DNA from: a virus
Length of the DNA: 21,001 bases
Direction: 5' to 3' (one strand)
IMG/VR virus record: IMGVR_UViG_3300010885_034150
Span: 1 to 21,001 of that record
This document shows positions 2,493 through 21,001 of this stretch, one piece after another; within the stretch, counting starts at the first letter, position 1, and each line of letters opens with the position of its first letter. The notes beneath the pieces are model-generated. The model saw only the letters and a program-made list of their open reading frames with translations, was not told where the DNA came from and did no database searches. The position numbers and the translations under genes are program-made.

Positions 2493-2537
2493 TACAAGTG
2501 CCAAGTGGTCATCTAAAGCAATTGATGCAATAATTTA

Positions 2538-2545
2538 AATAAATA
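2538..2545 (+). promoter_or_regulatory. putative T4-type late promoter box
   Basis: AATAAATA matches 7 of 8 bases of the T4 late consensus TATAAATA. It lies 20 nt before the neck gene ATG, with the Shine-Dalgarno in between, as expected for a late transcript start near 2551. It is a motif match only. Confidence 0.55.
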
Positions 2546-3924: not shown

Positions 3925-4583
3925 TCATTGGCGTATGCGGATTCATTGGGTCCGGCAAAGACACTGTTGCAGATTATCTAGTCAACTTTCACGAATTTCG
4001 AAGAGAGAGTTTTGCCAACACATTAAAAGATGCAGTAGCCGCAGTGTTTGGGTGGGACAGAACCATGCTGGAAGGGCGTACCAAGCAGGCCCGCGAATGG
4101 CGTGAGCAAGTGGATCCGTGGTGGGCTGCACGATTAAAAATGCCAGAGCTTACTCCTCGTTTGATGCTACAAATCTGGGGTACAGAAGTGTGCCGTAGAG
4201 GATTTCATGATGATATCTGGATTGCTGCTCTGGAAAATAAATTACGCCACAGCAAAGACCACATTGTTATCAGTGATTGCCGTTTTCCTAATGAAATCAA
4301 ATCAATCAAAGCAGTTGGCGGCATTGTTGTGCGGGTAGTGCGTGGGCCTGAGCCCGAGTGGTTGGAACATGCTAAAAATTACATGAGCGGAAATCGTCAC
4401 CCGGGGTGGGCACTGGGGCAACGACATTTGGAGATGGCCAATATCCACGCCAGCGAATATTCCTGGGTAAACGCCAAGTTTGATGCAGTGTTAGCCAACA
4501 ACAGCACTATAGATGACTTGTACAGTCAAGTCAATGATCTGGCGCTAAGTCACCTGGTGCCCAAGGCAAATCCGACTTTTTAA
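3921..4583 (+). CDS. 1: deoxynucleoside monophosphate kinase gp1-like
   Basis: This matches T4 gp1, the dNMP kinase that phosphorylates dTMP, dGMP and hydroxymethyl-dCMP to diphosphates for phage DNA synthesis in the cytoplasm. The P-loop GFIGSGKDT is at residues 7-15. It is followed by the conserved RESFANTLKDAVAAVFGW and REWREQVDPWW segments, the LQIWGTEVCRRGFHDDIWI region (about residues 84-107) and VISDCRFPNE. Length is 220 aa against 241 in T4. The start overlaps the exonuclease stop and has AAGGAA upstream. Its final 53 bases overlap the end of the antisense HNH-like gene. Without a modified-base pathway in the window, its actual substrate range cannot be told. Confidence 0.9.
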   Translation: MIIGVCGFIGSGKDTVADYLVNFHEFRRESFANTLKDAVAAVFGWDRTMLEGRTKQAREWREQVDPWWAARLKMPELTPRLMLQIWGTEVCRRGFHDDIWIAALENKLRHSKDHIVISDCRFPNEIKSIKAVGGIVVRVVRGPEPEWLEHAKNYMSGNRHPGWALGQRHLEMANIHASEYSWVNAKFDAVLANNSTIDDLYSQVNDLALSHLVPKANPTF

Positions 4584-4878
4584 TTTCGACCGTGCAATTT
4601 AAACATATGGTCTTTAAATTGGTTGCATTGGTATTGTGCAGATTACTGTCGGCATGATACACCAACAGCTGAGCTGAGTATTTTGATTTGAAACCACATT
4701 TGTCACAGGTGGTTTTTTTCTTGTAGCCAGCTGATTGCCATCGAGCCACTGGCGGCTTGATACGGCGTTTTTTCTTAATACATTGATCGCATCGCGTTCT
4801 ATGGTGTGCCATACCGTTGCGATAATAGTTAATGGCGCACAATCTCTGATTACAAGCAGTACAAATTGGTCTTTCCAT
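4531..4878 (-). CDS. Cys-rich HNH-like zinc protein, antisense
   Basis: This 115-aa protein has four CxxC pairs: C6/C9, C30/C33, C58/C61 and C92/C95. The second half (TCDKCG, then VYHADSN around residues 73-79, then NLKTICLNC) looks like a zinc-stabilised HNH nuclease fold, with H75 and N82/N87 in plausible positions. Similar small proteins occur next to structural genes in marine T4-like phages as I know them. It could be a DNA-nicking HNH enzyme, a free-standing mobile endonuclease, or only a zinc-binding regulator. It is the only minus-strand gene in the window and overlaps the kinase tail to tail. Its ATG lacks a close Shine-Dalgarno and sits 4 nt after a GATAAATA box. Confidence 0.8.
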   Translation of the reverse strand: MERPICTACNQRLCAINYYRNGMAHHRTRCDQCIKKKRRIKPPVARWQSAGYKKKTTCDKCGFKSKYSAQLLVYHADSNLHNTNATNLKTICLNCTVEIKKSDLPWAPGDLAPDH

Positions 4879-4892
4879 GATATATTTATCAT
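4877..4892 (-). promoter_or_regulatory. late-type box inside an inverted repeat at the start of the HNH-like gene
   Basis: On the minus strand, GATAAATA (4890-4883) is followed by TATC and the ATG at 4878. The whole site is a perfect 6-bp inverted repeat (ATGATA, 4-nt loop, TATCAT). This is the same TAAATA-N4-ATG arrangement as at 10944, 16210 and 18973 on the other strand. It may be a late promoter giving a leaderless message. Confidence 0.45.
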
Positions 4893-4940
4893 AAAACCTT
4901 TCCTAAAGGACAACATCACGGCGGTTTTTCCGCGCAAGCG

Positions 4941-4948
4941 CTAAATAT
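4941..4948 (+). promoter_or_regulatory. putative late promoter box of the sheath gene
   Basis: CTAAATAT contains the TAAATA core (4942-4947) 26 nt before the sheath ATG. The Shine-Dalgarno AAAGGA (4961-4966) lies in between. The leader shares AACTAGGAA (4953-4961) with the neck gene leader (2545-2553). Confidence 0.4.
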
Positions 4949-4973
4949 TAGCAACTAGGAAAAGGACCATACC

Positions 4974-7900
4974 ATGGCATTAACATCACCAGGCGTAGAA
5001 GTAACGATCATTGACGAGAGTCAATATATCCCGTCGGCTACCAATTCAGTACCATATATTTTATTAGCCACTGCCCAGAACAAAGCCAGTGCAGCCGGAG
5101 TAGGCGTAGCACCGGGAACATTGGCAGCTAATGCTAATAGAGTATACTTAATTACAAGTCAGCGTGATTTGGCCGCCACATACGGTAATCCATTCTTCTA
5201 TAAAACAACTGCTGGTACACCAATCAATGGTTACGAGCTAAATGAATACGGACTGTTGGCTGCTTACTCTGCACTGGGTGCAAGTAATCGTGTGTATGTT
5301 CAGCGTGTTGACATTGACTTGACCGAGCTGACAGCGTCATTGACTCGTCCCACCGGATCGCCAAACAACGGCGCCTACTGGTTAGATACCACCAACTCAC
5401 AGTGGGGTATTTTTCAATGGAATCAAACCACTGGTGCGTTTACTGTGCAGACTCCGCTGGTAATTACAAGTACAACACAATTAGAAATTTCCAGCACAGT
5501 TCCTTTACAAACAGTTGGCAGTATTGGTGATTATGCTATCACTGCTGCCACTGCTGCTACAACATTTAACCCAGGTTATTACAAACGAGGCGGCCCAACA
5601 TCCGCACAGACCAGTGCTGTAGAATTGTCAGACCTGTACAACACCTGGGTGTTGATTGGCAGCGATGAATGGAAAACTTCGTGGCCCACAGTAGCTGGCA
5701 CATTGGCTCCAACATCGTTGACTGCTGGCAATACATTCACAGTGAATGACACTTTGATCACGGTGCCAGTCAGTCCCAACAACACAGTCGACGGCGTTGC
5801 AAATGCAATTAATGACGCAAATATCACAGGCGTGTACGCTGCCAACATTGGCGGTAGACTAAACATGTACGCTGATTCCTCTGCATCCAATGACGGCAGC
5901 ACAGGCGACGGTGGCATTGTTTCAATTGCAACAGGCGCAGGAACGCCGTTGACTACATTGGGCATCACTGCCGGTGACTCATATGCTCCGGCTTTCTTAA
6001 TTGCGCCAAGTTATGATGCACCACGATGGGGTTCCACACAAACTCAACCACATCCAACTGGCAGTGTATGGCAAAAGATTTCAGCTGTAAATCAAGGTGC
6101 TGCATTGTCTGTCAAAAAATTCAGCACTGCATTAGCATTGTTTGTTCAACAGGCCTGCCCGTTGTATACATCTAATCGATTGGCAACATATGATCTTGAT
6201 CCAAGTGGTGGCGGCACAAATATTCCAGCTGGATCTACAATTGGCCGAGTTGATTTACTCAACAACAACACTAGTGCTATAACCATATATGAACGATTTG
6301 CTACCGGTGCAACAGAGATTACCGGCGATGACGATACTCCTGGTCCGTTTGTCAATGGTAACACATTTACAATATCTGCCACACAACCCGGTACAAGTAC
6401 AGACACAAATGCCACTGCTACTGTGCTTGGTACTACCACTGCTGATTTTATTGCCGCAGTTAGTGCAGCAAACATTCCGTATGTTAGTGCTACTGCCAAC
6501 AGTGCAGGTGCAATTGTGTTTACACATGCCACTGGAGGACAAATAACTTTAACCAACGTAACAGGAACACCTGTTACTACTGCTGGATTTAATTCAACCG
6601 TGCGTGGATGTAGCATAGCTTATACCGATGGCGCTGCCACTGGATTGGTTTTATCTAACTGGGTTTCAGCCCCAACATTTACCTACACCGCCAGTAACGA
6701 TGCTCCAGATCAAGATCCAGCAGACGGTCGTTTATGGTATTACAGTGCTGTTGATCAAGTTGATATCATGATTCAAGACAACGGATCATGGCAAGGTTAT
6801 CAAAATGTAACCAACGACGTTCGTGGTTACGATTTGAGCAATACCAATGCCACTGGTCCTATTATCAGTGCCACTGCACCAGTTACACAAACTGACGAAT
6901 CTGAGTCTCCATTGGTGTACGGTGACTTGTGGATTGACACAAGTGATTTAGAAAACTATCCAGTGGTCAGTCGTTGGGAATCAGTCAGTGGACAAGACCA
7001 ATGGGTTGTGATTGACAACTCTGATCAGACCACACAAAGTGGTGTGTTGTTTGCCGATGCTCGTTGGGCAACAAACGGCACCACAGATCCTATCACAGGC
7101 GCCTTTCCAACAATTACTAGTTTATTAACCAGTGATTATTTAGATTTGGATGCTCCTACGCCAACACTATATCCACAAGGCATGTTGTTGTTCAACACAC
7201 GCCGTTCGGGATTCAATGTCAAGAGTTTCCAAGTAAACTACTTCAACTCTACCACATTTCCAGACGATGTATTATCAACCGAAACCAACGCATGGGTAAC
7301 AGCAAGCGGACTACGAGCCGACGGTTCTCCATACATGGGACGCCAAGCTCAACGAGCATTGATTGTTGCTGCTATGAAATCTGGTATTGACACCAATACT
7401 GATATTCGTGAAGAACAGCGTCAATTCAACTTGTTGGCAACACCTGCATATCCAGAACTGATGCCCAATATGATTGCACTGAACAATGAGCGCGGCAACA
7501 CTGGCTTTGTCATTGGCGACACTCCGTTGCGTTTAGATCCACAAGATATTTTAACTTGGGCAAGCAACAACAATGGACTGGGATTGCCCACTGGTGATGG
7601 CCTGATTGCCGGTAACCAGTACATGGGTGTGTTCTATCCAAGTTGCCAGACAACTGATTTGAGCGGAAGCCCAGTGGTAACTGCACCAAGTCACATGATG
7701 ATTAGAACAATTATCCGCAGTGACGAAGTGTCGTTCCCTTGGTTTGCACCAGCTGGCACACGCCGCGGTGTAGTTGACAATGCTTTACAACTTGGTTACA
7801 TCAATTCAGCAACAGGCGAGTTTGAGTCATTGGGTGTTCGTCAAGGCCTACGCGATGTATTGTATGAAAATGCAATCAATCCAATAACATTTATTCCAGG

Positions 7901-8279
7901 AGTTGGTATTACCAACTTTGGTAATAAAACAACAACTTCGATCACAAGTGCGCTGGATCGAATCAATGTGTCCCGTTTGGTTGCGTTTATCCGTGGTCGC
8001 TTAGATGTGATTGGCAAGCAGTATTTGTTTGAACCAAACGATCAAATCACTCGTAATCAGATCAAGAATGCCATCGACGGTCTGATGATTGACCTAGTTG
8101 CCAAGCGTGGTTTGTATGACTATTTGGTTGTGTGTGACTTGACAAACAATACGCCAGCTCGTATTGATCGTAACGAGTTGTATGTTGACATTGCGATTGA
8201 ACCGGTCAAGGCAGTTGAATTCATCTACATCCCAGTGCGAATCAAGAACACAGGAGAGATATCTGGCGTAGCTAGCTAA
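4974..8279 (+). CDS. 18: tail sheath protein gp18-like, enlarged (1101 aa)
   Basis: This is the contractile sheath subunit, which stacks around the tail tube and drives injection when it shortens. The N-terminus (ALTSPGVEVTIIDES, then a YGNPFFY and GYELNEYGLLAAY region to about residue 110) and the C-terminus (LDRINVSRLVAFIRGRLD, then YVDIAIEPVKAVEFIYIP) are typical of gp18 and hold the inter-subunit strands. T4 gp18 is 659 aa; the excess lies mainly between about residues 120 and 730. Within it are two stretches (252-332 and 460-540) built like the flagellin hook IN motif, and three Trp-rich 'G-x-W' modules (127-150, 577-608, 641-682). These are probably surface domains. The start is fixed by AAAGGA 7 nt upstream. 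A strong terminator follows. Confidence 0.93.
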   Translation: MALTSPGVEVTIIDESQYIPSATNSVPYILLATAQNKASAAGVGVAPGTLAANANRVYLITSQRDLAATYGNPFFYKTTAGTPINGYELNEYGLLAAYSALGASNRVYVQRVDIDLTELTASLTRPTGSPNNGAYWLDTTNSQWGIFQWNQTTGAFTVQTPLVITSTTQLEISSTVPLQTVGSIGDYAITAATAATTFNPGYYKRGGPTSAQTSAVELSDLYNTWVLIGSDEWKTSWPTVAGTLAPTSLTAGNTFTVNDTLITVPVSPNNTVDGVANAINDANITGVYAANIGGRLNMYADSSASNDGSTGDGGIVSIATGAGTPLTTLGITAGDSYAPAFLIAPSYDAPRWGSTQTQPHPTGSVWQKISAVNQGAALSVKKFSTALALFVQQACPLYTSNRLATYDLDPSGGGTNIPAGSTIGRVDLLNNNTSAITIYERFATGATEITGDDDTPGPFVNGNTFTISATQPGTSTDTNATATVLGTTTADFIAAVSAANIPYVSATANSAGAIVFTHATGGQITLTNVTGTPVTTAGFNSTVRGCSIAYTDGAATGLVLSNWVSAPTFTYTASNDAPDQDPADGRLWYYSAVDQVDIMIQDNGSWQGYQNVTNDVRGYDLSNTNATGPIISATAPVTQTDESESPLVYGDLWIDTSDLENYPVVSRWESVSGQDQWVVIDNSDQTTQSGVLFADARWATNGTTDPITGAFPTITSLLTSDYLDLDAPTPTLYPQGMLLFNTRRSGFNVKSFQVNYFNSTTFPDDVLSTETNAWVTASGLRADGSPYMGRQAQRALIVAAMKSGIDTNTDIREEQRQFNLLATPAYPELMPNMIALNNERGNTGFVIGDTPLRLDPQDILTWASNNNGLGLPTGDGLIAGNQYMGVFYPSCQTTDLSGSPVVTAPSHMMIRTIIRSDEVSFPWFAPAGTRRGVVDNALQLGYINSATGEFESLGVRQGLRDVLYENAINPITFIPGVGITNFGNKTTTSITSALDRINVSRLVAFIRGRLDVIGKQYLFEPNDQITRNQIKNAIDGLMIDLVAKRGLYDYLVVCDLTNNTPARIDRNELYVDIAIEPVKAVEFIYIPVRIKNTGEISGVAS

Positions 8280-8280
8280 G

Positions 8281-8305
8281 AAAAAAGGAGTGTCACTCCT
8301 TTTTT
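8281..8305 (+). terminator. strong rho-independent terminator after the sheath gene
   Basis: AAAAAAGGAGTG and CACTCCTTTTTT are perfect reverse complements around a single T, effectively a GGAG/CTCC-cored hairpin with an A-tract before and a six-T run after. It starts 1 nt after the sheath stop. The symmetric A and T runs suggest it could also work in the other direction. Confidence 0.85.
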
Positions 8306-8321
8306 GACCAGACTCAATCAC

Positions 8322-8329
8322 CATAAATA
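8322..8329 (+). promoter_or_regulatory. putative T4-type late promoter of the tail-tube operon
   Basis: CATAAATA matches 7 of 8 bases of TATAAATA and lies between the sheath terminator and the tube gene. The Shine-Dalgarno AGGAG (8339-8343) and ATG 8352 follow at normal spacing. Placement right after a terminator makes a promoter here necessary for high tube expression. Confidence 0.65.
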
Positions 8330-8351
8330 ACAGTATATAGGAGAACAACAA

Positions 8352-8996
8352 ATGGCCGTATCATCACTAAGTAAAATGACAGTTCCTTTGGCCAGCGACC
8401 AAAGTGCTTCGACGCAGGGCGTACTAATGCCCAAACTCAAATATCGCTTCAGAGTGTTATTTGAAAATTTTGGAGCCGCCAACAATGCTGCACCTGTAAC
8501 AGAATTAACCAAGCAGGTGATTGATTTTACCCGGCCAACTGTTAGTTTTGCACAAATTGATGTGCCAATTTACAATTCCACAATCAAACTGGCTGGCAAG
8601 CACACATGGAATGATATCACCTGCAACCTGCGTGATGATGCAGGAGCCAATGTGCAAAAACTTGTTGGCGAACAGCTACAGAAACAATTGGACTTTATGG
8701 AAATGGCCAGCGCCAGTGCCGGCATTGACTACAAATTCATTACCAAATTTGAAGTGCTGGACGGCGGCAATGGCGCAGTGGCACCAGTGGTACTTGAATC
8801 ATGGGAACTGTACGGTTGCTACTTGAAAGAAGTAAATTACAACGATGCCAACTATGCTTCCAGCGAAGCAATGACCATTGGATTGTCAATCACATTCGAC
8901 AATGCCAATCAAATTGTTGGTGGCGGCGTTGGTTCAGCAGGAACATTGGTTGGTAGAGCAGGAGACGTTGCTACTGGCGTAACCACTGGACTCTAA
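8352..8996 (+). CDS. 19: tail tube protein gp19-like
   Basis: This is the T4 gp19 type subunit of the rigid inner tail tube through which DNA passes. At 214 aa it is somewhat longer than T4 gp19 (163 aa). It shows the family layout: the N-terminal LMPKLKYRFRVLFENFG strand region, TKQVIDFTRPTVSFAQIDVPIYNSTIKLAGKHTWNDI in the middle, and a C-terminal SWELYGCYLKEVNY...AMTIGLSITFDNANQ beta strand. A clear AGGAG precedes the start. Its stop overlaps the next ATG (TAATG), so the following gene is coupled. Confidence 0.9.
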   Translation: MAVSSLSKMTVPLASDQSASTQGVLMPKLKYRFRVLFENFGAANNAAPVTELTKQVIDFTRPTVSFAQIDVPIYNSTIKLAGKHTWNDITCNLRDDAGANVQKLVGEQLQKQLDFMEMASASAGIDYKFITKFEVLDGGNGAVAPVVLESWELYGCYLKEVNYNDANYASSEAMTIGLSITFDNANQIVGGGVGSAGTLVGRAGDVATGVTTGL

Positions 8997-10120
8997 TGAG
9001 TTTTGGACAAGATTTTCTTAAAGGTTTTATTGGCGACAACGGGTTAAGAGATTACACCCACGCTAGTAAAACCTTTCGCACAAATGGATACCAACTTGCG
9101 CCCAAGCTCAAGTTTCTGTTCCATACATATTTCAATCTGAATCCACAAGTACCCGGCGTACAACAACTGTTGGGCAATGGCGATGTTACCAGCATAGGGT
9201 TATCTGTCAAAACAGTTGACTTACCCAGCTATCAAATCAGTGTTGATACACTAAACCAATACAATCGTAAACGCTTGGTACAAAGTAAAATTAAATATCA
9301 GCCCATTCAAATAACATTCAACGATGACGGCGGCGACCTAATTCGAAATTTGTGGTACAACTACTTCAACTACTACTACAAAGATCCAGTGAACAAGTAC
9401 GAAGGTGTTCCCAACACCAATGGCAACAGTGGGGATTTACAAACAACACCAGCAGGATTCAGTTACAACGCCAGCGACACCTACAGCAATCGTTTTGTAA
9501 ACGACTGGGGATACGCTGGTGAATCGTATTCAGATGGCACATTCACTGGTGGCGGCAAACCCGCATTTTTCAAAGACATTAAAATTTATGGCCTGAATCA
9601 ACACAAGTTTTCTGCGTATGTGTTGATAAATCCAATGATCACAGACTGGAAACATGACACCTACGACTACGGTCAAGACAACGGTACAATGACACACACT
9701 GTCACAGTGGATTACGAAACTGTAAAATATTATTCTGGTGCCATTGGTGCGTCACGCCCAGATACCAATGTGGTCGGATTTGCTGATCCAAACTATTACG
9801 ATCAAATTAGAAGTTCGTTGGCACGGCCCGGCAGTCAGGCCACTGTGTTGGGACAAGGCGGCTTGTTGGACGCAGGGGTGGGTATTATGGAAGACATTCA
9901 GGCCCTGGCGTCAGGTCAAGGAAGTCTAGCCAATGTGCTGGGCGGCGTACAAAAAGCTCTCAATGTGAATGCCACATTGAAACGGAACTCCATTGGCGAT
10001 TTGGTAAGAAACGATGCCAACACAATAAAACAAGATGTGCTGCGCAACAGCCTGCCAGGCGCAGTTAGAGCTGCTGCAAACTCAGCCAACAGTCAAATAT
10101 TTCCCAAAGCACCACGATAA
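8996..10120 (+). CDS. second tube-fold protein, gp19/gp54-like
   Basis: The protein carries the same signature strands as the tube protein: LAPKLKFLFHTYFNLNP near residue 35, VKTVDLPSYQISVDTLNQYNRKRLVQSKIKYQPIQITFNDD near 72-112, and a late TMTHTVTVDYETVKYYSG strand near 230-248. At 374 aa it is much longer than a tube subunit and has an extra tail of about 110 residues. In T4, gp54 and gp48 share the tube fold and cap the baseplate to start tube assembly, so a tube-initiator or tube-terminator role is the best guess. It sits in a TAATG-coupled run between gp19 and the next structural gene. The exact T4 counterpart cannot be settled here. Confidence 0.75.
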   Translation: MSFGQDFLKGFIGDNGLRDYTHASKTFRTNGYQLAPKLKFLFHTYFNLNPQVPGVQQLLGNGDVTSIGLSVKTVDLPSYQISVDTLNQYNRKRLVQSKIKYQPIQITFNDDGGDLIRNLWYNYFNYYYKDPVNKYEGVPNTNGNSGDLQTTPAGFSYNASDTYSNRFVNDWGYAGESYSDGTFTGGGKPAFFKDIKIYGLNQHKFSAYVLINPMITDWKHDTYDYGQDNGTMTHTVTVDYETVKYYSGAIGASRPDTNVVGFADPNYYDQIRSSLARPGSQATVLGQGGLLDAGVGIMEDIQALASGQGSLANVLGGVQKALNVNATLKRNSIGDLVRNDANTIKQDVLRNSLPGAVRAAANSANSQIFPKAPR

Positions 10121-10482
10121 TGGCTACCATTAACAATACAAACTACAACATAGATCTCACAGTCCGTGTGTTTGACGAATTTTACGGATTTGAATCTGTT
10201 GTTCCAGTGGATGAATGGGACGCTGTGCTTTCGTATTTTGAGTCAATTTATACCACAAAAGTAGCAGCAAAAAACTTTGCAACTGTTATATTCAGAGTGG
10301 CCAATGAACAAGGTGTATCTGCTATGACTCTGTTGACACAGATACAATCAGCAAGCGGTCCAGCAGAATTAGATATAACTATTGCGTACTATCTCAATAA
10401 CCTGCGCAGCAACAGTACTCTGTTGGGTGTGTCACAGCCTGTGCAGCCAAACTACTATCCAGCCCATAATGTCAGAGCATGA
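10120..10482 (+). CDS. unknown protein in the tail/head operon (120 aa)
   Basis: I do not recognise this 120-aa protein. It begins MATINNTNYNIDLTVRVFDEFYGFE and has an acidic, aromatic first half and a helical centre (FATVIFRVANEQGVSAMTLLTQIQ). It overlaps the genes on both sides: TAATG with the tube-like gene and ATGA with gp4. That coupling says it is made with the virion proteins, so it is probably a minor structural protein or an assembly chaperone. It has no signal peptide or membrane segment. Confidence 0.8.
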   Translation: MATINNTNYNIDLTVRVFDEFYGFESVVPVDEWDAVLSYFESIYTTKVAAKNFATVIFRVANEQGVSAMTLLTQIQSASGPAELDITIAYYLNNLRSNSTLLGVSQPVQPNYYPAHNVRA

Positions 10483-10910
10483 GCAAGTTTGCCCAAGGCC
10501 CCTACACTGTTAAAAATGCCGCCAAGTATGTGGGCAAAGGTGTGCCGCGTTACAGATCAGGCTGGGAGTTGGCATTTATGCGATTCCTTGACAATAACGA
10601 TCATGTGATGCAATGGGCTAGCGAATCAATTCAAATACCCTATCGTAATCCCATCACCGGCAAACAAAGCATATATGTTCCGGACTTTTTGATCACCTAT
10701 AGAACACGGCAAAACACCCTGATTGCCGAAGTGATTGAAATCAAACCCAAGAAACAAAGCGTGATTGAAAGCAAAATGAGCAACAACGACCGTATGGTAG
10801 TGGCTATCAACTACGCCAAATGGGACCAGGCCACCAAGTGGTGTGCTCGCAACGGATTGAAGTTTAGAGTAATCACAGAAGAAGACATGTTCCGCAACGG
10901 TGGAAAATAA
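10479..10910 (+). CDS. 4: head completion protein gp4-like
   Basis: This matches T4 gp4 (also called gp50/65), needed to finish DNA-filled heads before tail joining. At 143 aa it has nearly the T4 length (150 aa). The shared signature is YRSGWELAFMRFLD (residues 25-38), VMQWASESIQIPY (43-55), YVPDF (66-70) and VIEIKPKKQS (85-94). E30, D69, E87 and K89 together form a TnsA/PD-(D/E)XK-like nuclease site, so it may trim packaged DNA ends. The start overlaps the previous stop (ATGA). Confidence 0.92.
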   Translation: MSKFAQGPYTVKNAAKYVGKGVPRYRSGWELAFMRFLDNNDHVMQWASESIQIPYRNPITGKQSIYVPDFLITYRTRQNTLIAEVIEIKPKKQSVIESKMSNNDRMVVAINYAKWDQATKWCARNGLKFRVITEEDMFRNGGK

Positions 10911-10920
10911 GCTGCCCTAA

Positions 10921-10943
10921 ACCGTAGATGCGGTAAATACGGT
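10921..10943 (+). promoter_or_regulatory. late-type box in an inverted repeat abutting the gp16 start
   Basis: ACCGTA (10921-10926) and TACGGT (10938-10943) are a perfect inverted repeat whose right arm ends at the base before ATG 10944. The TAAATA core is at 10934-10939, exactly 4 nt before the ATG. There is no Shine-Dalgarno. See the TAAATA-N4-ATG finding. Confidence 0.45.
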
Positions 10944-11444
10944 ATGACACGCAAACTTGAAGACCTGTTCGATCTACCGGCCAGCACTGCTGATACAGAT
11001 GAAACTGTGACAGATATCGCTGCCACACAATACAGCATAACAGAAATTGATTCGGCCATTGACAAAATTGATGCAGCTCTGCCTGGCATCCGCGACCTTG
11101 AAACCAGCGACAAAGAAATGGATGATTTGGCTGTCAAAGCCACTGAAACATTTGATGATCTAATGGACCTCGGTATGCAGGTGGACAGTCGTTATGCCAG
11201 CGAAATATTTGCTGTGGCCGGTGCCATGCTGGGACATGCGCTCACTGCCAAAACAGCCAAAATGAACAAGAAATTAAAAATGATTCAGTTACAGTTACAA
11301 AAAGCCAAACTGGATCTTGACAAAGAAAAAGCTGCTGGTCACGACGATGAACCTGCTGCAACTGCCGAAGGACAAGTGCTGAGCCGCAATGATCTACTTG
11401 AGCGCTTGATTGGCACACGGGATCAAAAGAATAAACCTGCATAA
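10944..11444 (+). CDS. 16: probable small terminase subunit gp16-like
   Basis: The small terminase subunit forms a ring that recognises DNA and regulates the gp17 motor. This 166-aa protein (T4 gp16 is 164 aa) has the same plan: a disordered acidic N-terminus, a central helix pair (ETFDDLMDLGMQVDSRYASEIFAVAGAMLGHALTA, about 68-102) like the T4 segment preceding TNREILKLHKD, a Lys-rich coiled coil (about 104-132), and a C-terminal RNDLLERL helix. The assignment rests on this layout and the neighbourhood, not on a unique motif. It is unusual that gp17 is not directly next to it but 5.9 kb downstream. There is no Shine-Dalgarno; the ATG follows a TAAATA box by 4 nt. Confidence 0.65.
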   Translation: MTRKLEDLFDLPASTADTDETVTDIAATQYSITEIDSAIDKIDAALPGIRDLETSDKEMDDLAVKATETFDDLMDLGMQVDSRYASEIFAVAGAMLGHALTAKTAKMNKKLKMIQLQLQKAKLDLDKEKAAGHDDEPAATAEGQVLSRNDLLERLIGTRDQKNKPA

Positions 11445-11447
11445 ATA
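11440..11447 (+). promoter_or_regulatory. putative T4-type late promoter box
   Basis: CATAAATA, identical to the box at 8322-8329, overlaps the gp16-like stop and lies 17 nt before ATG 11465. AGGGA (11454-11458) is the ribosome site in between. Both sites have TATAGG a few bases further on. Confidence 0.6.
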
Positions 11448-11464
11448 TCATATAGGGATCAAAC

Positions 11465-12070
11465 ATGAAACACTTCAGAGAATATTTGTTAGAAAACGAA
11501 AGAGTATACAACTACCGCATTAAAATCGCCGGTGATACTCCCAAAGACTTTGTCAAGGCTCTTGAAGAAAAACTTCAACAGTTTGACATTGTTAAAATTT
11601 CTGCACCAAAAACAACACCAGTTATGGCCAAGTTGGCAGACTTTCCAGCGTTTGACAACGAAAGTTGCACACACATGGATGTGGAGTTTCGCTATCCAGC
11701 TATTGAACCACAGATACAGCAAATAGCACAATTGTTGGGACTTGACCCAAATCGTGTGCGTATGTTGACTGTGCCATACGAAAACAGCAATGATAAACTC
11801 ACTGCTGATGTGGAAGCACAAAACAAGGATTTACTAAATTCTCCTTACCCTGCTCCGGACGCTGAACAAAAGGCCTTGTACAAAGACTACTCAGCTGCAC
11901 CAATGGATCATGCAGTGTTAAAGAATACCTATCGCAGTGAATTCACAGTGGCTGGTGGCAAGACACCACCTGCTGTGACCACAAACAGTTTACCAATGGG
12001 CAACAAGAGCCCAATGACCTCGGTCAAGCGTCCACCACGGCCAGCAACTGGCTACAACCCAAGAGGATAA
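11465..12070 (+). CDS. probable virion protein with capsid-targeting-like leader (201 aa)
   Basis: I do not recognise the protein as a whole. Its N-terminus MKHFREYLLEN resembles the T4 internal-protein capsid-targeting sequence (MKTYQEFIAEA in IPIII): the aromatic residue is at 7 and the Glu of the (L/I)-x-E prohead-protease site is at 10. This suggests co-packaging in the prohead and cleavage after E10. The next 90 residues form an alpha/beta fold (YRIKIAGDTPKDFVKALEEKLQQFDIVKI, later ALLGLDPNRVRMLTVPY-like) that resembles a small ferredoxin-like fold. The last 100 residues are Pro-rich and probably disordered, ending RPATGYNPRG. It lies 4 nt from the next gene, so it is likely co-expressed. 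Confidence 0.8.
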   Translation: MKHFREYLLENERVYNYRIKIAGDTPKDFVKALEEKLQQFDIVKISAPKTTPVMAKLADFPAFDNESCTHMDVEFRYPAIEPQIQQIAQLLGLDPNRVRMLTVPYENSNDKLTADVEAQNKDLLNSPYPAPDAEQKALYKDYSAAPMDHAVLKNTYRSEFTVAGGKTPPAVTTNSLPMGNKSPMTSVKRPPRPATGYNPRG

Positions 12071-12074
12071 TACA

Positions 12075-14372: not shown

Positions 14373-14390
14373 TCAACAAAGGAAAACAAA

Positions 14391-14693
14391 ATGGCAACAC
14401 AAGTAGTCAATGCAGCAGGCAATGTATTATGGACGTCTGACAAGGCAGAAATTTCTGCGGTAACTGATGTTACATTTCAAGTGGGCATAACAGAACTTGG
14501 TAACACTGCCAACATCACCGGTAACTTGTATGCCAATGCAGTATCTGTGCCAGCTGGCACTTCAACACAGGCCTATGTTGGTGTGGGCAATCGACTTTAT
14601 CTCACTGGTACTACTTTTACTGCGGTAGCACTGGGAACAGAAAGTTCTGCTCAAGCCAGCATATACACTGGCCCATCTTACGGCGCTGTGTAA
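14391..14693 (+). CDS. small beta-rich unknown protein, probably virion (100 aa)
   Basis: I do not recognise it. It is rich in Ala, Thr, Val and Gly, has almost no Lys or Arg, and looks like an all-beta domain (NITGNLYANAVSVPAGTSTQAYVGVGNRLYLTGTTF). Such proteins in late phage operons are usually decoration, fibre or whisker domains. AAAGGA (14378-14383) is 7 nt before the ATG. A weak late-type box TATAAAAA is at 14352-14359. There is no signal peptide. Confidence 0.8.
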   Translation: MATQVVNAAGNVLWTSDKAEISAVTDVTFQVGITELGNTANITGNLYANAVSVPAGTSTQAYVGVGNRLYLTGTTFTAVALGTESSAQASIYTGPSYGAV

Positions 14694-14702
14694 CAGTATC
14701 AT

Positions 14703-15077
14703 ATGAGAGCTACAGAATTTGTTTTGGAAGCTCGCCGGGGCAAACTTACCAAGCGCAATCAATTTGCCAGTGTAGGTATAAACACATTTCACGACAGCGA
14801 ACGAGCCAACAGCGATTACACACTTAACCGTGTGATGATGGCAGTGGCCATGGCTGACGGCTCTGACACTCCCATTGATATGGATGCGTACAGTTGGGTT
14901 GGCAAAGAACGCACAGCTCACCCTTACACAGAAATAGAACAAAAAATGCTCAAACAGGCCTTTAAGGCCGCCGGGGCTGACTGGCAGGATCTAAACAAAG
15001 GTGATCTTGACAGTGAAGAACATCCTACTGTCAACGTCACTAGTCCTATACAAGCATTCAAAGGATACCCGCGATGA
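14703..15077 (+). CDS. leader-bearing paralog 1 of a tandem pair (124 aa)
   Basis: The function is unknown. It starts MRATEFVLEAR, which resembles the capsid-targeting and prohead-protease leader of T4 internal proteins, with Phe at 6 and Glu at 9 followed by Ala. The middle is helical (LNRVMMAVAMADG near 48-60, EIEQKMLKQAFKAAGADW near 83-100) and the end is SPIQAFKGYPR. The next gene has the same start and end motifs, so the two are probably a duplicated pair. It begins 9 nt after the previous stop with no Shine-Dalgarno, and its stop overlaps the next ATG (ATGA). An internal head protein is the best inference. Confidence 0.8.
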   Translation: MRATEFVLEARRGKLTKRNQFASVGINTFHDSERANSDYTLNRVMMAVAMADGSDTPIDMDAYSWVGKERTAHPYTEIEQKMLKQAFKAAGADWQDLNKGDLDSEEHPTVNVTSPIQAFKGYPR

Positions 15078-15460
15078 GAGCTCGTGAGTTCATTGTAGAA
15101 CAATCAACATTGCCTCCAGAGCAAGCAGATCCCATGAATCATGTGTTCATATTGCCTGGTGTAAAATCTAGCGACCCTTATCAAATCTATAGACTGGGTG
15201 TGGCCATGGCCCGTGCCAGAAGTGATGCAGGCACACAAGATCCAATACCCCACATGCCCGAGTGGTCACCACAAGCGGCATTTGGCGAAGATGCTGTGAT
15301 TGCAGGATTCAATGCCCTGGTTGAACCAGTGATTGATCAAGCATTAAAAATGGCCGGACTAGCCGCCAAAAAAGTTCAAGTAAGCACGCCAAACAGCCTG
15401 GAGCCTGCATCAGTCAATCATCAAAGTCCAGTAAACGGCTTTAAAGGCTATCCAAGATAA
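15074..15460 (+). CDS. leader-bearing paralog 2 of a tandem pair (128 aa)
   Basis: The function is unknown. The N-terminus MRAREFIVEQ fits the T4 prohead-protease rule better than its neighbour (I7-V8-E9). The body is more diverged, with YQIYRLGVAMARARSD near 37-52 and a helix ending ALKMAGLAAKK near 96-106. It ends SPVNGFKGYPR, matching the SPIQAFKGYPR end of paralog 1. It is translationally coupled on both sides (ATGA upstream, TAATG downstream). Confidence 0.8.
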   Translation: MRAREFIVEQSTLPPEQADPMNHVFILPGVKSSDPYQIYRLGVAMARARSDAGTQDPIPHMPEWSPQAAFGEDAVIAGFNALVEPVIDQALKMAGLAAKKVQVSTPNSLEPASVNHQSPVNGFKGYPR

Positions 15461-15738
15461 TGGCAAACCCGCCACCACCATACGACGACATCACAGGCAT
15501 AAGCCGTGCTGTGATGAAAGACAATGCACAAGTAACAATAGAAAACTACAACGGCAATGCCAGACCAGGCGAACTGGTGGTTGATCAAATTACTGATCAA
15601 GTGTTTATCGGCAATAGTTCGGGTGCATTAACACAAATTGCTGCCGGAATTACCAATGGTGGTAGTTCAGGACTTCCTGCAGGATTTTATCAATTGGCCT
15701 ACAACCCTACCACTGGTGAAATTGTTTATTATACTTAA
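15460..15738 (+). CDS. small fibre-like domain protein (92 aa)
   Basis: The segment NARPGELVVDQITDQVFIGNSSGALTQI (about 29-56) matches the beta-type module often found at the N-terminus of phage tail fibres and tropism determinants, where 'GEL-x-(V/I)-D-x-x-T-x-x-(V/L)-(F/Y)-(I/V)-G' is a recurring pattern. Here it stands alone in a 92-aa protein with a Pro-rich N-terminus (ANPPPPYDD) and a Gly-rich linker. It may be a small virion decoration or fibre-base protein. The start overlaps the previous stop (TAATG). Confidence 0.75.
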   Translation: MANPPPPYDDITGISRAVMKDNAQVTIENYNGNARPGELVVDQITDQVFIGNSSGALTQIAAGITNGGSSGLPAGFYQLAYNPTTGEIVYYT

Positions 15739-15747
15739 AATTTTAAA

Positions 15748-16191
15748 ATGAAAAAATTACTCCTACTCTTACTCTTACTCGTCGTACCTGTGCTGGCCAT
15801 GGCACAAGGCAAACAAAAACCTGGTGTCACATATGATGCAGTAATCACCAGAGTAATTGATGGTGACACCGTGGCGTTTCAAGCAGACTTTTTGCCTGCA
15901 CCACTCAAAAAAGAACTCAGTATTAGAGTGTACGGTGTAGACACTCCTGAAAAAGGCTTTAGAGCACAATGCCCTAGTGAAGCACAACGTGGAGAAGCTG
16001 CGTCAGCATTTACAAAACATGCTGTGGAATCTGCACAAAAACGTCAGGTTGTGCTGATGGACTGGGACAAGTATGGTGGACGAGTTCTAGGCGATGTACT
16101 ACTAAACGGACAAAGTTTGCGAGTCATGCTGATACAAAATGGATTTGCACGAGAATACTACGGCGAAGCCAAAACAAGTTGGTGCCAGTAA
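15748..16191 (+). CDS. secreted thermonuclease (SNase family)
   Basis: This is a staphylococcal-nuclease-type phosphodiesterase that cuts DNA and RNA with calcium. The catalytic set is complete: D40 in IDGDTV, R60, D65-T66-P67-E68 in VYGVDTPEKG, and R112 in YGGRVLGDV, equivalent to D21, R35, D40-E43 and R87 of the model enzyme. The N-terminus MKKLLLLLLLLVVPVLAMA is a signal peptide with a likely cut after AMA (residue 19), so the enzyme is exported to the periplasm or outside. C75 and C146 could form a disulfide. It sits among virion genes with no Shine-Dalgarno of its own, 9 nt after the previous stop. It may be a captured bacterial gene used to scavenge nucleotides or clear extracellular DNA. 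Confidence 0.92.
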   Translation: MKKLLLLLLLLVVPVLAMAQGKQKPGVTYDAVITRVIDGDTVAFQADFLPAPLKKELSIRVYGVDTPEKGFRAQCPSEAQRGEAASAFTKHAVESAQKRQVVLMDWDKYGGRVLGDVLLNGQSLRVMLIQNGFAREYYGEAKTSWCQ

Positions 16192-16195
16192 TACT

Positions 16196-16209
16196 CCTGT
16201 AAATACAGG
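16196..16209 (+). promoter_or_regulatory. late-type box in a palindrome abutting the second radical-SAM start
   Basis: CCTGTA, AA and TACAGG form a perfect 14-bp inverted repeat that ends at the base before ATG 16210. The TAAATA core (16200-16205) is exactly 4 nt before the ATG. This is the clearest case of the TAAATA-N4-ATG class. Confidence 0.5.
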
Positions 16210-17367
16210 ATGAGTAATTTTTACTGTGCTGCACCCTGGCGCGGCCTTCATATCAATCCGCGTGGCGACGTCAAAACCTGTTGTGCAGGTGACCCCAATA
16301 TGCTGGGCAACCTAAACACACAGACTATTGAACAGATCCTCAATGGTGATTTGATGACAGCAATTCGTGGCAGCATTGCGCAGGGTCAGTCTCATCAGTA
16401 CTGTTCAAACTGTGTGCAGGCCGAACGCCACGGCGGAGACTCCGAACGAGCCTGGCACAATCGTGATAATCCCAATTTTGATTTTGTCAAAGCCGGCGAC
16501 AAATATCACTATCCAGTTATTGTTGACATTCGGTGGAACACCACCTGTAATCTAAGTTGCAACTATTGCATGGAATATTGCAGTTCAAAATGGGCTTCGT
16601 TGAAAGGTATCCCGGTCAAGTCTGGTGCTAGACCCTACTATGAGCAGGTGTGCGACTTCATTGAGCAACACTATGAACACATCCACGAAGTGGCCTTGGT
16701 CGGTGGAGAACCGTTGTTGCTGCCAGAAAATAATCGCTTGCTGGATGTGATACCTAAAGATGCAGTTGTTACCTTGATTACCAATCTCACCGGCGATCTT
16801 GAAAACAACCGTATATTTCAGAAACTAGCAAAACGAAATCGTGTCGGCTGGAGCATGAGCTTTGACAATATTGGCCCAAGATTAGAATATGTTCGCTATG
16901 GTGCTGGATGGGATGAAATACAACGCAACCTTGGCTTGGTCAAAAATCTAATGACCACACAGGGACACTCGGGCGGCATACATGCAGTGTACAACATATA
17001 CAATGCCACACGAATTTGTGAACTGCGTGAGTTTGCTGAACAGACCGGAACCACGGTGCTGTGGCAAAACTTATTTCAGCCCGACTATCTTGATCCATTC
17101 TTGCATGGCCCTACAGTTGCTGCTGAAGCAATCGCTGAGATTGAACGCTTTTATGCCCTGGGCATTGCTACTGCTGCCGAACAGGTGTTCTTTGACCGTG
17201 CATTGCAGAGCTATCGTTCAGTGACTCAACCACAGCCCACCATTGAACATCGATTTGCAACACATATCCGAGAAATTGAAAATCAGTACCACCCAGACAC
17301 AAAAGGAAAGTTTGCCACGCTGTGGCCCGAACTGGCAAGCCTATGCAACCAACAGAGGAACTTGTAA
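16210..17367 (+). CDS. radical SAM protein with N-terminal twitch domain
   Basis: This 385-aa protein opens with an auxiliary-cluster (twitch-like) domain: C6 in FYCAAPWRGLHINPRG, C24/C25 in KTCCAG, and C65/C68 in YCSNC. A radical-SAM core follows, with CX3CX2C at C113, C117, C120 (CNLSCNYC) and GGEP at 165-168. The order, twitch before core, is the reverse of the protein at 1590. Such proteins usually modify peptides or proteins, but the substrate is unknown and no precursor is obvious nearby. Its stop is directly followed by the gp17 ATG, so it is probably co-expressed with the packaging motor late in infection. It has no usual Shine-Dalgarno (only CAGG immediately before the ATG). Confidence 0.88.
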   Translation: MSNFYCAAPWRGLHINPRGDVKTCCAGDPNMLGNLNTQTIEQILNGDLMTAIRGSIAQGQSHQYCSNCVQAERHGGDSERAWHNRDNPNFDFVKAGDKYHYPVIVDIRWNTTCNLSCNYCMEYCSSKWASLKGIPVKSGARPYYEQVCDFIEQHYEHIHEVALVGGEPLLLPENNRLLDVIPKDAVVTLITNLTGDLENNRIFQKLAKRNRVGWSMSFDNIGPRLEYVRYGAGWDEIQRNLGLVKNLMTTQGHSGGIHAVYNIYNATRICELREFAEQTGTTVLWQNLFQPDYLDPFLHGPTVAAEAIAEIERFYALGIATAAEQVFFDRALQSYRSVTQPQPTIEHRFATHIREIENQYHPDTKGKFATLWPELASLCNQQRNL

Positions 17368-18948
17368 ATGGCTATCCAAAGTAGTTTAGAAACATCGTTG
17401 GTCAAAGCCCCGCATCGTCGGCAAGCATTCACTGAAGCTGAAATCGTAGAATTCATGAACTGCGCTGATAGTGTGACTGGCCCGGCCTATTTTCTTGATC
17501 ATTATTTTTACATACAACATCCCACACGGGGAAAAATGCTGTATCATGCGTTTGAATATCAACAACGTCTGGTTGATGTGTACCACAACTATCGTTTCAG
17601 CATATCAATGATGCCGCGACAAACTGGTAAAAGTACCAGTGCAGCAGGTTACCTGCTGTGGTATGCAATGTTTGTTCCGGATTCGACCATTCTCATTGCA
17701 GCACACAAATACACCGGTGCCCAGGAGATCATGCAGCGTATCCGTTTTGCATACGAGCTGTGCCCGGATCATATTCGCGCCGGTGCCACCAGCTACAACA
17801 AAGGCAGTATAGACTTTGAAAATGGCAGTCGTATCATATCAGCTACCACAACTGAAACAACTGGTCGTGGTATGAGTATATCTCTGCTGTACGCTGACGA
17901 GTTTGCATTTGTGCGCCCTACCATTGCCAAAGAATTTTGGACCTCTATCAGTCCTACCTTGGCCACAGGTGGTAAAGCAATTATCACAAGTACGCCCAAC
18001 AGTGACGAAGATCAGTTTGCATTGTTGTGGAAAAGTGCTCTCAAGTGTGAAGACGAATACGGCAACCCAACTCCATTAGGCATAAATGGATTCAAAGCAT
18101 TCCGCAGTTTTTGGCAAGAGCATCCAGACCGTGACGAGGCCTGGGGTAAAAGTATGGAAGCACAGTTGGGTGTTGATCGATTCCGTCGAGAGATTGGATG
18201 CGAATTCATTATCAATGATGAAACACTGATTGCTCCGGCCATACTGGTTGATCTGCAAGGCCAGCAAGACCCACTGTTTAGAACCGGTCAAGTGCGCTGG
18301 TACAAGAGACCCGAAGCTGGCAAAATCTATGTAGTGGCACTGGATCCCAGTCTGGGCACCGGCAGTGATCCTGCAGCCATACAGGTGTTTGAAGCCAACA
18401 CAACTATACAGATAGCCGAATGGCGCCACAACAAAACTGCAATCCCAGCACAGATACGCATACTGGCGGATATTTGTAAATTTATAAATGAAACTGTGAA
18501 AGATTCCAAGAGCATATACTACAGCATAGAAAACAACACCATTGGTGAAGCAGCACTTATTTCTATTGCTGAATATGGTGAAGAAAACATTGAAGGGTAT
18601 TTCTTAAGCGATAACTCTGTGGCCGGCGGCGCAAGACGCATACGAAAAGGCTTCAACACCACGCACAAAAGTAAATTGTCGGCCTGTAACAAGTTAAAAA
18701 TTTTAGTAGAATCTAAAAAAATGCAAATCAACAGTGCGCCATTGATATCAGAACTAAAAACATTTGTGGCGCACGGCACCAGCTATGCTGCCAAGCCCGG
18801 CGAAACAGATGATTTAGTAATGGGCACAGTGCTGGCCGTTCGTATGATGATGCTGCTGCAAAACTACCACACTGAAATGGACTCGCAAATGCGTGATTTT
18901 GGCGACAGTATGGTGGAGCCAATGCCGTTTTTTGCCACATTCCGCTAA
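17368..18948 (+). CDS. 17: large terminase subunit gp17-like
   Basis: This is the DNA-packaging motor, an ATPase plus nuclease that pumps DNA into the prohead through the portal and cuts the concatemer. The ATPase has Walker A MPRQTGKST (82-90, K88), Walker B SLLYADE (172-178, D177-E178) and the coupling motif TSTPN (207-211). The RNase H-fold nuclease has its three acids in the T4 positions: D326 in VVALDPSLG, E388 in YYSIENN, and D481/D482 in ETDDLVMG. Length is 526 aa against 610 in T4. AGAGGA lies upstream inside the preceding gene and the ATG follows its stop directly. Confidence 0.96.
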   Translation: MAIQSSLETSLVKAPHRRQAFTEAEIVEFMNCADSVTGPAYFLDHYFYIQHPTRGKMLYHAFEYQQRLVDVYHNYRFSISMMPRQTGKSTSAAGYLLWYAMFVPDSTILIAAHKYTGAQEIMQRIRFAYELCPDHIRAGATSYNKGSIDFENGSRIISATTTETTGRGMSISLLYADEFAFVRPTIAKEFWTSISPTLATGGKAIITSTPNSDEDQFALLWKSALKCEDEYGNPTPLGINGFKAFRSFWQEHPDRDEAWGKSMEAQLGVDRFRREIGCEFIINDETLIAPAILVDLQGQQDPLFRTGQVRWYKRPEAGKIYVVALDPSLGTGSDPAAIQVFEANTTIQIAEWRHNKTAIPAQIRILADICKFINETVKDSKSIYYSIENNTIGEAALISIAEYGEENIEGYFLSDNSVAGGARRIRKGFNTTHKSKLSACNKLKILVESKKMQINSAPLISELKTFVAHGTSYAAKPGETDDLVMGTVLAVRMMMLLQNYHTEMDSQMRDFGDSMVEPMPFFATFR

Positions 18949-18960
18949 TGCTAAAACTTT

Positions 18961-18968
18961 AATAAATA
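18961..18968 (+). promoter_or_regulatory. putative late promoter box, 4 nt before ATG
   Basis: AATAAATA matches 7 of 8 bases of the T4 late consensus and ends 4 nt before ATG 18973. There is no Shine-Dalgarno and, unlike three similar sites, no inverted repeat. Confidence 0.5.
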
Positions 18969-18972
18969 CACT

Positions 18973-21001
18973 ATGGCACAAAATAATCCAGGACAACAAC
19001 TTTCAGACCTTTTGGTCACCCGCGGCTACGACCCAGAGATGCTGGATAGCGCAGGTAAAGCAGCGCCCTCTGCACAGGATGCTGAAATTTTCAGCTTTGA
19101 TTTTGTCACAGCAAATGGCACCAATCACGGATCAGTGGTTGTGATGCTGGGTGATGACAAAGAATTAACTGTGTTCAGCGGCGACAATGTTGGTCGTAAC
19201 ATGGACAGCGAAGACAAAACAGAATGGTACGATTTTCAACATCAATTGAAAAACTTTGCCACAAAGAATTTTATGACATTTGGCAGTCAAAATATCAACA
19301 AACTCAAATACAGCATGCAAGGGCAAGCAGCCCTTAAAGAAGGCTTGTGCGAAAGTTGGAACGGCACAAAGAATGTCAGTTGGAACGGCGGCCCAGACTC
19401 TGTACGACTGATGATACGGCACAAGCGCCCAATGGGCATTGACGAAGCCAGATTCCGGCAGGTAGAAAGCCTGTTTGTAGAAACCGCAGATGGTGAACGC
19501 CACCGGTTGTCATTCCGTAGTCTAGCTGGCGGCCGGGCCATGGTCGAACATGTGCGACAAGGCGGCAAGCCATATGACATGCGCGGACAACATATTTCCA
19601 ACATGGTTGAAGAACTCAATGTTCTAAGCCGTTTCCGCAGAGCCAGCAAAGGCCAAGTGTTTGAAGGTGACACAGCCAATTTGATAGCGGAAACCAACCG
19701 CTACTATGAAACAATGTGCCGAACTGTAAAGGGTCTGTCATCTAACAAAGGCTACAACAGCTATTTTGAAAACTGGAATCCCGGTGATGTCACCGAACAA
19801 GATTTGATCATTGAAGATATCAAAACATTATTCGTGCAAGAAACAATTGATTCACGAATTGAACAGGCCTTACCTATTCTGGCCCGCATACAACAACAAG
19901 GAACCGCTATGAAAGAAGCAAACATATTTGAAGCCTGGGCCGAACGCCTGTTAGAAGGCACATGGGCAACACCAAATACCCCTGAACAAAAACAACAGTT
20001 GATTGAGCTACTGTCACAAGAATTGCCAGTTGGGCCTGACGCTACCAATGCAACAGAACAGTTGTACAGTTTGTTTGGTGACGACGAATTGTTTGATCAG
20101 TTGCAAGAACTAGCTGAAAATGATCCTGACGCTGATGCTCGTGAAATAGTTATTGCTCGTATGACAGAGTTGGCCAACAGCGGATCAGATAATGATCTTA
20201 TGGAAGTACTTGCTGCGTTAGAACCCACAGTGCCTGAACCAGAAGCTGCGGCCAGCCCAGACGTCGTAGACACCCCGGCGCCAGCACCAGTGGCTGAAGG
20301 CCAAGGTCCAAGTGAAGCAGAACGATTGGATCATTACCATGATCTAAAAGCCAGCGGTATGGACCCCGATGCAGCCGAGGAAGAAGCATACGGCACAGAT
20401 GACTGGTATAACGACAGCATTGATGAACAAGACCCCATTGCCAGAATGATGGAAATGGCCGGCGTCCCAGTGGCAGAAGGCAAATGGGACCCATTTACTG
20501 GTGGCGACTATGGGCAGACTCCGCGCCCTCAGCAAGTTGGACAAGACACACAAGACACACAAGACACACAAGACACACAAGACAGTGATGCTGCCGCGCC
20601 TGACAAGAAAAAAGATCAAGAAGAGTGGGAAGCCATGTTGGATTACTATGGCACCAATGCGTTAGTTGCTCGAGCCTTAGGTGATTTGTATCAACAAACT
20701 CATGGTACTGGATATTACGATAGCGTTCTAACTCCTGTTAGATATATAGCCACTATTTCTAGCCGGATCACTCCAGAAAGTCCAGAACGAATTGAAACAA
20801 TAAGCGTTGGAAGTAAAAAAGAAGCACATGAACGTGCAAAAGGAAGAATAAACGGACGTGTGGTCAGCATAGAACGAGTTGACGACAAAGAAGATGAAGC
20901 AGGATTAATCACATTACCGGTGATGCTGGGACTTGGTCAACAAAAGAAAAAATGGATGCTACAGTTCCCTGACGAACGCTATGCACAAAAGTGGGCGTTC
21001 A
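18973..21001 (+). CDS. large acidic virion-like protein, cut by the window edge (at least 676 aa)
   Basis: The frame is open from ATG 18973 to the end of the window, so the C-terminus is missing. I do not recognise a named function. The first 300 residues form a mixed alpha/beta region (DKTEWYDFQHQLKNFATKNFMTFG near 78-101, RGQHISNMVEELNVLSRFRRASKGQVFEG near 205-233). A helix ANIFEAWAERLLEG (316-329) resembles an internal leader with an L-L-E prohead-protease-like site. An acidic part follows with ELPVGPDATNATEQLYSLFGDDELF (about 348-372), a Pro/Ala linker, RMMEMAGVPVAEG near 487-500, and the QDT repeat at 524-538. The last part becomes basic and folded. Its place after gp17 is where portal and head genes lie in T4, so a head-core or minor capsid role is plausible. 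Confidence 0.85.
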   Translation, partial: MAQNNPGQQLSDLLVTRGYDPEMLDSAGKAAPSAQDAEIFSFDFVTANGTNHGSVVVMLGDDKELTVFSGDNVGRNMDSEDKTEWYDFQHQLKNFATKNFMTFGSQNINKLKYSMQGQAALKEGLCESWNGTKNVSWNGGPDSVRLMIRHKRPMGIDEARFRQVESLFVETADGERHRLSFRSLAGGRAMVEHVRQGGKPYDMRGQHISNMVEELNVLSRFRRASKGQVFEGDTANLIAETNRYYETMCRTVKGLSSNKGYNSYFENWNPGDVTEQDLIIEDIKTLFVQETIDSRIEQALPILARIQQQGTAMKEANIFEAWAERLLEGTWATPNTPEQKQQLIELLSQELPVGPDATNATEQLYSLFGDDELFDQLQELAENDPDADAREIVIARMTELANSGSDNDLMEVLAALEPTVPEPEAAASPDVVDTPAPAPVAEGQGPSEAERLDHYHDLKASGMDPDAAEEEAYGTDDWYNDSIDEQDPIARMMEMAGVPVAEGKWDPFTGGDYGQTPRPQQVGQDTQDTQDTQDTQDSDAAAPDKKKDQEEWEAMLDYYGTNALVARALGDLYQQTHGTGYYDSVLTPVRYIATISSRITPESPERIETISVGSKKEAHERAKGRINGRVVSIERVDDKEDEAGLITLPVMLGLGQQKKKWMLQFPDERYAQKWAF
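20542..20586 (+). repeat. 9-bp in-frame tandem repeat (QDT)n
   Basis: Four perfect copies of CAAGACACA (20542-20577) and a fifth ending in AGT (20578-20586) encode QDTQDTQDTQDTQDS. The unit is a multiple of three, so slippage changes linker length without breaking the frame. Confidence 0.95.

Follow-up and report, generated by a model that had tools for sequence, protein, structure and literature searches.

The cI mRNA of phage lambda is leaderless, beginning at AUG. Lambda has been named as the first leaderless case (PMC3160421), and the leaderless genes of Deinococcus-Thermus and Actinobacteria have a -10 element, TANNNT, close to the open reading frame (PMC12340547, PMC3160421). The box of the T4 late promoter spans -13 to -6 (PMC1524935), and in the T4 genes e, soc, 49 and I-TevI the late promoter lies in the 5' arm of a hairpin which silences read-through mRNA (PMC3014915). 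Huge phages encoding bS21 have been described with a GC content of 31-34 % and Bacteroidetes hosts (PMC9723584). The locus described here belongs to a clade in which, very probably, T4-type late promoters adjoining the AUG give mRNAs that are leaderless (4-6 nt between box and AUG) or have a leader of 3 nt (7 nt between them), beside mRNAs led by a Shine-Dalgarno (SD) sequence.

The window, i.e. the whole stretch of 21,001 bases that was analysed, is a viral contig of a T4-related jumbo phage, relatives of which have genomes of about 340 kb. Its TerL shares 50 % identity with the TerL of Pseudomonas phage PA5oct and is also related to those of Atu_ph07 and Phosso, and its tail tube protein has matches in the same group. 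Among the sequences compared, the nearest relatives were IMG/VR contigs, one of them G001 (340 kb, TerL 96 % identical). The number of nucleotides between a TAAATA box and the start codon is hereafter called d; starts with d=4-7 form the short class and those with d=16-28 the SD-led class. Exactly four copies of TAAATANNNNATG are present in the window (4876-4888 on the minus strand; 10934-10946, 16200-16212 and 18963-18975 on the plus strand), compared with 0.26 expected by shuffling, and none of 100 shuffles had four; the original prediction had given the coordinates of these four starts correctly. Of the window's 12 TAAATA hexamers, d=4 accounts for four, and another five, including an overlapping pair, serve the four SD-led starts. 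The three inverted repeats with 6-bp arms reported earlier were found again, and the remaining late boxes, which had been placed 17-26 nt upstream of their genes, indeed lie at the distances listed here.

2536-2541, plus strand: second TAAATA box, overlapping that of gene 2566
2540-2545, plus strand: TAAATA late box, d=20, SD-led, head-tail adaptor gene 2566; in the 16-28 class in 4/4 relatives
4531-4878, minus strand: Cys-rich ORF of 115 amino acids, unknown family, no Pfam match; predicted leaderless late gene
4877-4892, unstranded: inverted repeat ATGATA/TATCAT, spanning box and ATG; fold z -2.57
4883-4888, minus strand: TAAATA late box, d=4 to the ATG of the antisense gene, short class; d=4 kept in 3/4 distinct relatives
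4942-4947, plus strand: TAAATA late box, d=26, SD-led, tail sheath gene 4974; in the 16-28 class in 4/4 relatives
8324-8329, plus strand: TAAATA late box, d=22, SD-led, tail tube gene 8352
10921-10943, unstranded: inverted repeat of ACCGTA (10921-10926) and TACGGT (10938-10943), adjoining the ATG; fold z -0.05
10934-10939, plus strand: TAAATA late box, d=4, short class
10944-11444, plus strand: ORF of 166 amino acids, phrog_16202, unknown function; predicted leaderless
11442-11447, plus strand: TAAATA late box, d=17, SD-led, gene 11465
16196-16209, unstranded: palindrome CCTGTA-AA-TACAGG with the box at its centre; fold z -1.99, compensated arms in relatives
16200-16205, plus strand: TAAATA late box, d=4, short class
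16210-17367, plus strand: radical SAM/SPASM protein; predicted leaderless
18963-18968, plus strand: TAAATA late box, d=4 in the window and d=7 in most relatives; predicted to give a leaderless mRNA or a 3-nt leader
18973-21001, plus strand: virion structural protein, phrog_13484, extending past the end of the window

Two radical SAM proteins (1590-2492 and 16210-17367, one with a SPASM domain) are encoded within the structural gene block, and at least 80 related contigs encode a relative of the protein of 16210-17367. The ORF at 10479-10910, within the tail and head gene block, matches a TnsA-like endonuclease N-terminal domain and has the same position as a PA5oct gene annotated as head closure; it is possibly a T4 gp4-like head completion nuclease. 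A short tandem repeat of CAAGACACA units at 20521-20590 encodes QDTQDTQDT in the 18973 protein.

The spacing was first measured in 158 sequences, consisting of 157 related loci and the window, in which an ATG was required to open an ORF of at least 60 codons. The distances from TAAATA to ATG had peaks at d=4 (184), d=5 (78) and d=7 (140), with 0-1 at each of d=8-12 and a second mode at 17-26 nt, counts which are not independent, the scanned sequences being mutually related. Control hexamers gave far lower counts and nothing comparable, save for words overlapping TAAATA. Because the 157 loci share genes, four whole genomes of relatives (317-364 kb) were also scanned, with gene starts taken from a simple ORF picker that calls by length. 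Starts with d=4-7, d=8-15 and d=16-28 numbered 25, 4 and 28 in G001, 24, 3 and 33 in G003, 33, 4 and 26 in G004, and 31, 5 and 34 in G007, respectively; the genome-wide enrichment of short spacing, on which the original prediction had staked its own refutation, was present. A spacing of exactly 4 nt, put forward as the rule, was replaced by 4-7 nt: the four sites in the window are real, but 4 is one value within the class and 5 is the commonest in the whole genomes. In an unbiased scan of hexamers 4-7 nt before ATG, TAAATA was found 104 times compared with 10.7 expected, and the 14 most enriched hexamers were all SD words but TAAATA, the phages' own SD words being AAGGAG-like. Each spacing class made up approximately 8 % of all genes in the four genomes. 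Judged by the box, about half of the predicted T4-type late promoters adjoin a start codon in this large group of freshwater giant phages.

Two other hexamers also occurred upstream of short-class starts in the four genomes: TAAGTA was present 17 times compared with 1.7 expected, with its peak at d=5, and TAATTA 8 times compared with 1.5. Both look like permitted variants of the late box. A look at several starts without the box, in the terminase, nuclease and radical SAM families, showed variants such as TAAGTA at some and neither box nor SD at others. At G001:258483-260016, two divergent short-class genes have a common intergenic region of 37 bp with two back-to-back TAAATA boxes.

The two classes differed at the start itself. 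An SD core was present within -20 to -4 at 4 of 113 short-class starts (4 %) compared with 85 of 121 SD-led starts (70 %), and the ratio of ATG to GTG plus TTG was 113:7 in the short class and 121:43 in the SD-led class. Leaderless gene classes are marked by a promoter box about 10 nt ahead of the start codon, a missing SD and a strong AUG preference, all of which the short class shows. Counting from the box, position 5 or 6 held the first A in 100 of the 121 SD-led promoters, which matches the published T4 geometry. At every d=4 site and at 36 of 40 d=5 sites, this first A belonged to the ATG itself; with a box at -13 to -6, as in T4, the +1 position of a d=5 site coincides with the A of the ATG. 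At d=7, 17 of 20 sites had the A at position 5, three bases ahead of the ATG, suggesting that these sites carry a 3-nt leader and that their AUG is not strictly 5'-terminal. A pyrimidine immediately preceded the ATG in 66-86 % of the short class compared with 51 % of the SD-led class, which fits the pyrimidine-purine start that would be expected. In-frame alternative starts with an SD were found for the 113 short-class genes twice upstream and never within 25 codons downstream, and with hardly any such starts, stop-codon overlap and wrong start choice were dropped as explanations.

Class membership was largely inherited. In ortholog pairs from the four genomes, 190 of 246 short-class genes stayed in the short class and 14 became SD-led, and 165 of 225 SD-led genes stayed SD-led, with 21 turning to the short class. 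Among distinct upstream regions, orthologs of gene 10944 had d=4-5 in 42/46 and those of gene 18973 d=4-7 in 89/89 (77 at d=7); the family of gene 16210 had d=4-7 in 59/145, some of these from distant paralogous matches. Orthologs of the SD-led genes 8352 and 11465 had d=16-28 in 25/25 and 42/42, respectively. TerL changes class, being SD-led in the window and boxed in some relatives. In a second set of loci, fetched with the PA5oct TerL, the short class was present down to 52 % TerL identity, so that its conservation spans 52-96 % identity.

Among the SD-led late genes of G001 are those for the portal, sheath, tube, adaptor, a large baseplate wedge protein, a head decoration or fibre protein and the endolysin. 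The short-class genes of the same genome include those for TerL, radical SAM, nuclease and homing endonuclease proteins, a small baseplate wedge protein, nucleotidyl and heptose transferase-like enzymes, a phosphoesterase and two virion proteins. Going by these gene names, the short class of G001 may be a channel of lower output. The G001 genome also contains, at approximately 101-112 kb (L163:1006-11767), an array of 30 tRNA genes together with a predicted permuted tmRNA (ARAGORN tmRNA*) with an unusual tag ending in SLAV.

A late sigma factor of the gp55 type (phrog_12791) was found in all seven clade genomes searched (E 2e-60 to 7e-73), as well as in PA5oct, Atu_ph07 and Phosso; its gene lies outside the 21-kb window fragment. 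bS21 is encoded by five of the seven clade genomes and by PA5oct, and is absent from G001 and G002. Where named, the best 80 bacterial matches of one clade bS21 were from Betaproteobacteria, mostly Burkholderiales, one being labelled only Proteobacteria, hinting at a host among the SD-using Burkholderiales; for the window the hint is indirect, its closest relative G001 lacking bS21. Burkholderiales use SD sequences. To our knowledge they are not noted for abundant leaderless mRNAs, which counts against the leaderless reading. bS21 was rejected as the cause of the leaderless class, being missing from G001 and G002 and present in PA5oct, which does not have the class. IF3 is phage-encoded in Phosso (L439) and Atu_ph07 (L440), in neither of which the N4 pattern is enriched, and was not found in the seven clade genomes, PA5oct or T4; as a cause, its pattern of presence and absence is suggestive at most.

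TAAATA would be a T4-type late promoter core, recognised by the gp55-like sigma and present in this clade in two conserved arrangements. A box 16-28 nt upstream would give a transcript with a short leader and an SD, and from a box 4-7 nt from the ATG the RNA would begin at the A 5-6 nt past the box. At d=4, d=5 and probably d=6 this would be the AUG itself, and at d=7 three bases before it, usually as ACT-ATG. The short-class mRNAs, without an SD, would be translated as leaderless messages. The two late modes of the original prediction, leaderless and SD-led, are strongly supported by the spacing, the SD and ATG biases, the position of the A, the orthologs and the late sigma.

The TAAATA beside the ATG might instead be an A/U-rich translation element, i.e. 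a standby site or an enhancer binding S1 or bS21, in polycistronic mRNA and no promoter. Nearly all sites lack an SD, 77 of 113 lie behind a gene on the same strand (median gap 17 nt) and bS21 is encoded by most of the clade genomes, as such an element would have it, but the identical hexamer is found 16-28 nt from the starts of the SD-led late class, no comparable enrichment is seen for other AT-rich hexamers, and the gap at 8-15 nt and the fixed position of the A suit a transcription start site, not a U-rich enhancer. Furthermore, 36 of 113 sites follow a neighbour on the opposite strand, where a promoter is needed, and we consider the translation element very unlikely. Chance or an artefact of gene-start annotation could be entertained from the window alone, with its four sites and short motifs, but the strong excess, the conservation over 52-96 % identity and the few alternative SD starts, together with the genome-wide scan, refute this, and its probability is negligible.

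The inverted repeats allow two readings of their own. As TAAATA itself is TA-AA-TA, the box can supply part of each 6-bp arm. Arms of at least 4 complementary bases across the box were found at 20 sites in the 16210 family compared with 8.0 by permutation, and at 17 compared with 9.8 in the 10944 family, in tests which ignore relatedness; no excess was found in the 18973 family, in the whole short class of the four genomes or in the SD-led class. The repeats are a gene-specific extra in two gene families and not a feature of the class, and the palindrome was dropped as a defining character. Co-variation of the arms between relatives, which had been suggested as a check, was supported in the 10944 and 16210 families and not in the 18973 family. 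In the 16210 family the arms vary and still pair (CCTG/CAGG, CCCG/CGGG, ACCG/CGGT, GCTG/CAGC), and mean fold z was -1.14 in this family and -0.90 in the 10944 family, both averaging greater stability than shuffles, compared with 0.31, 0.47 and -0.32 in others. Such pairing, and the T4 precedent with a late promoter within the 5' arm (PMC3014915), would fit RNA hairpins that block initiation in read-through mRNA until the late promoter drops the 5' arm. The stems are, however, short (4-6 bp), many orthologs lack them, and the fold of the window's copy at 10921-10943 does not surpass shuffles in stability. Hairpins are a plausible explanation to which we give somewhat less than an even chance, compatible with late promoters adjoining the AUG, and appear to be the most likely role of the repeats. 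In some leaderless genes a hairpin would then cover the start in read-through mRNA and be missing from the late-promoter RNA. The palindrome-binding regulator of the original prediction would likewise draw on the symmetric, compensated palindromes of the 16210 family, but the operator sequence of one regulator should be conserved, and the arms vary between relatives, besides being without excess in the class or in the 18973 family. This ranks it below the hairpin, and operators for a regulator of the leaderless class are very unlikely.

If late promoters do adjoin the AUG, gene finders which demand an SD can misplace such starts; a TAAATA-N(4-7)-ATG rule would correct them and would mark late genes in metagenomic phages. 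A wider and distinctly tentative proposal, which we regard as rather doubtful, is a two-channel late programme in this aquatic jumbo phage clade, with bulk structural proteins made from SD-led mRNAs, enzymes and low-copy parts from leaderless ones, a shift of ribosomes between them and silencing by hairpins. One late sigma would then feed both channels, the position of the promoter would set the translation class, and late in infection the phage would redistribute host ribosomes between the two channels.

A placement within the published clades of bS21/Bacteroidetes phages was rejected, since neither GC nor host affinity matches. The bS21-encoding huge phages resemble the clade in being large and from freshwater, with late-gene translation under possible phage control, but their GC and hosts are unlike the GC found and the hosts predicted here, and bS21 does not track the leaderless class of the clade. 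As no short class is present in the cultured relatives PA5oct and Atu_ph07, there is no experimental model at hand. PA5oct has 2, 7 and 33 starts at d=4-7, d=8-15 and d=16-28, respectively, Syn9 has 1, 0 and 18, and T4 has 1, 10 and 31, whereas the clade genomes have 24-33 short and 26-34 long spacings. The exact N4 pattern was absent from T4 and Syn9 and below the reversed control in PA5oct, Atu_ph07 and CBB.

With the T4 late promoters (TATAAATA, gp55/gp33/gp45) the clade has in common the core hexamer, the late-sigma family and the position upstream of structural genes, and its SD-led half is of the ordinary T4 style. T4 late transcription is a textbook system, to which a leaderless late class would be new; no prior report of leaderless T4-like late genes was found in the open-access literature, most subscription journals lying outside the search. 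In T4 e, soc, 49 and I-TevI, as in the clade repeats, the inverted repeat at the start overlaps the late promoter, and the late RNA would lose the 5' arm; the T4 hairpins hide the SD and/or AUG, whereas in the clade there is no SD, the 3' arm adjoins the AUG and two families only are involved. The leaderless genes of Deinococcus-Thermus and Actinobacteria likewise have a promoter element against the start codon, no SD, and a second motif class (GGAG) elsewhere, but they use the housekeeping sigma of the cell, whereas the clade would use a phage late sigma, for late genes only, in a seemingly SD-using proteobacterial host. The clade would show a phage choosing the route of initiation by promoter placement alone in such a host. 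In lambda a single repressor gene, cI, is leaderless, whereas in the clade about 25-33 late genes per genome are predicted to be so.
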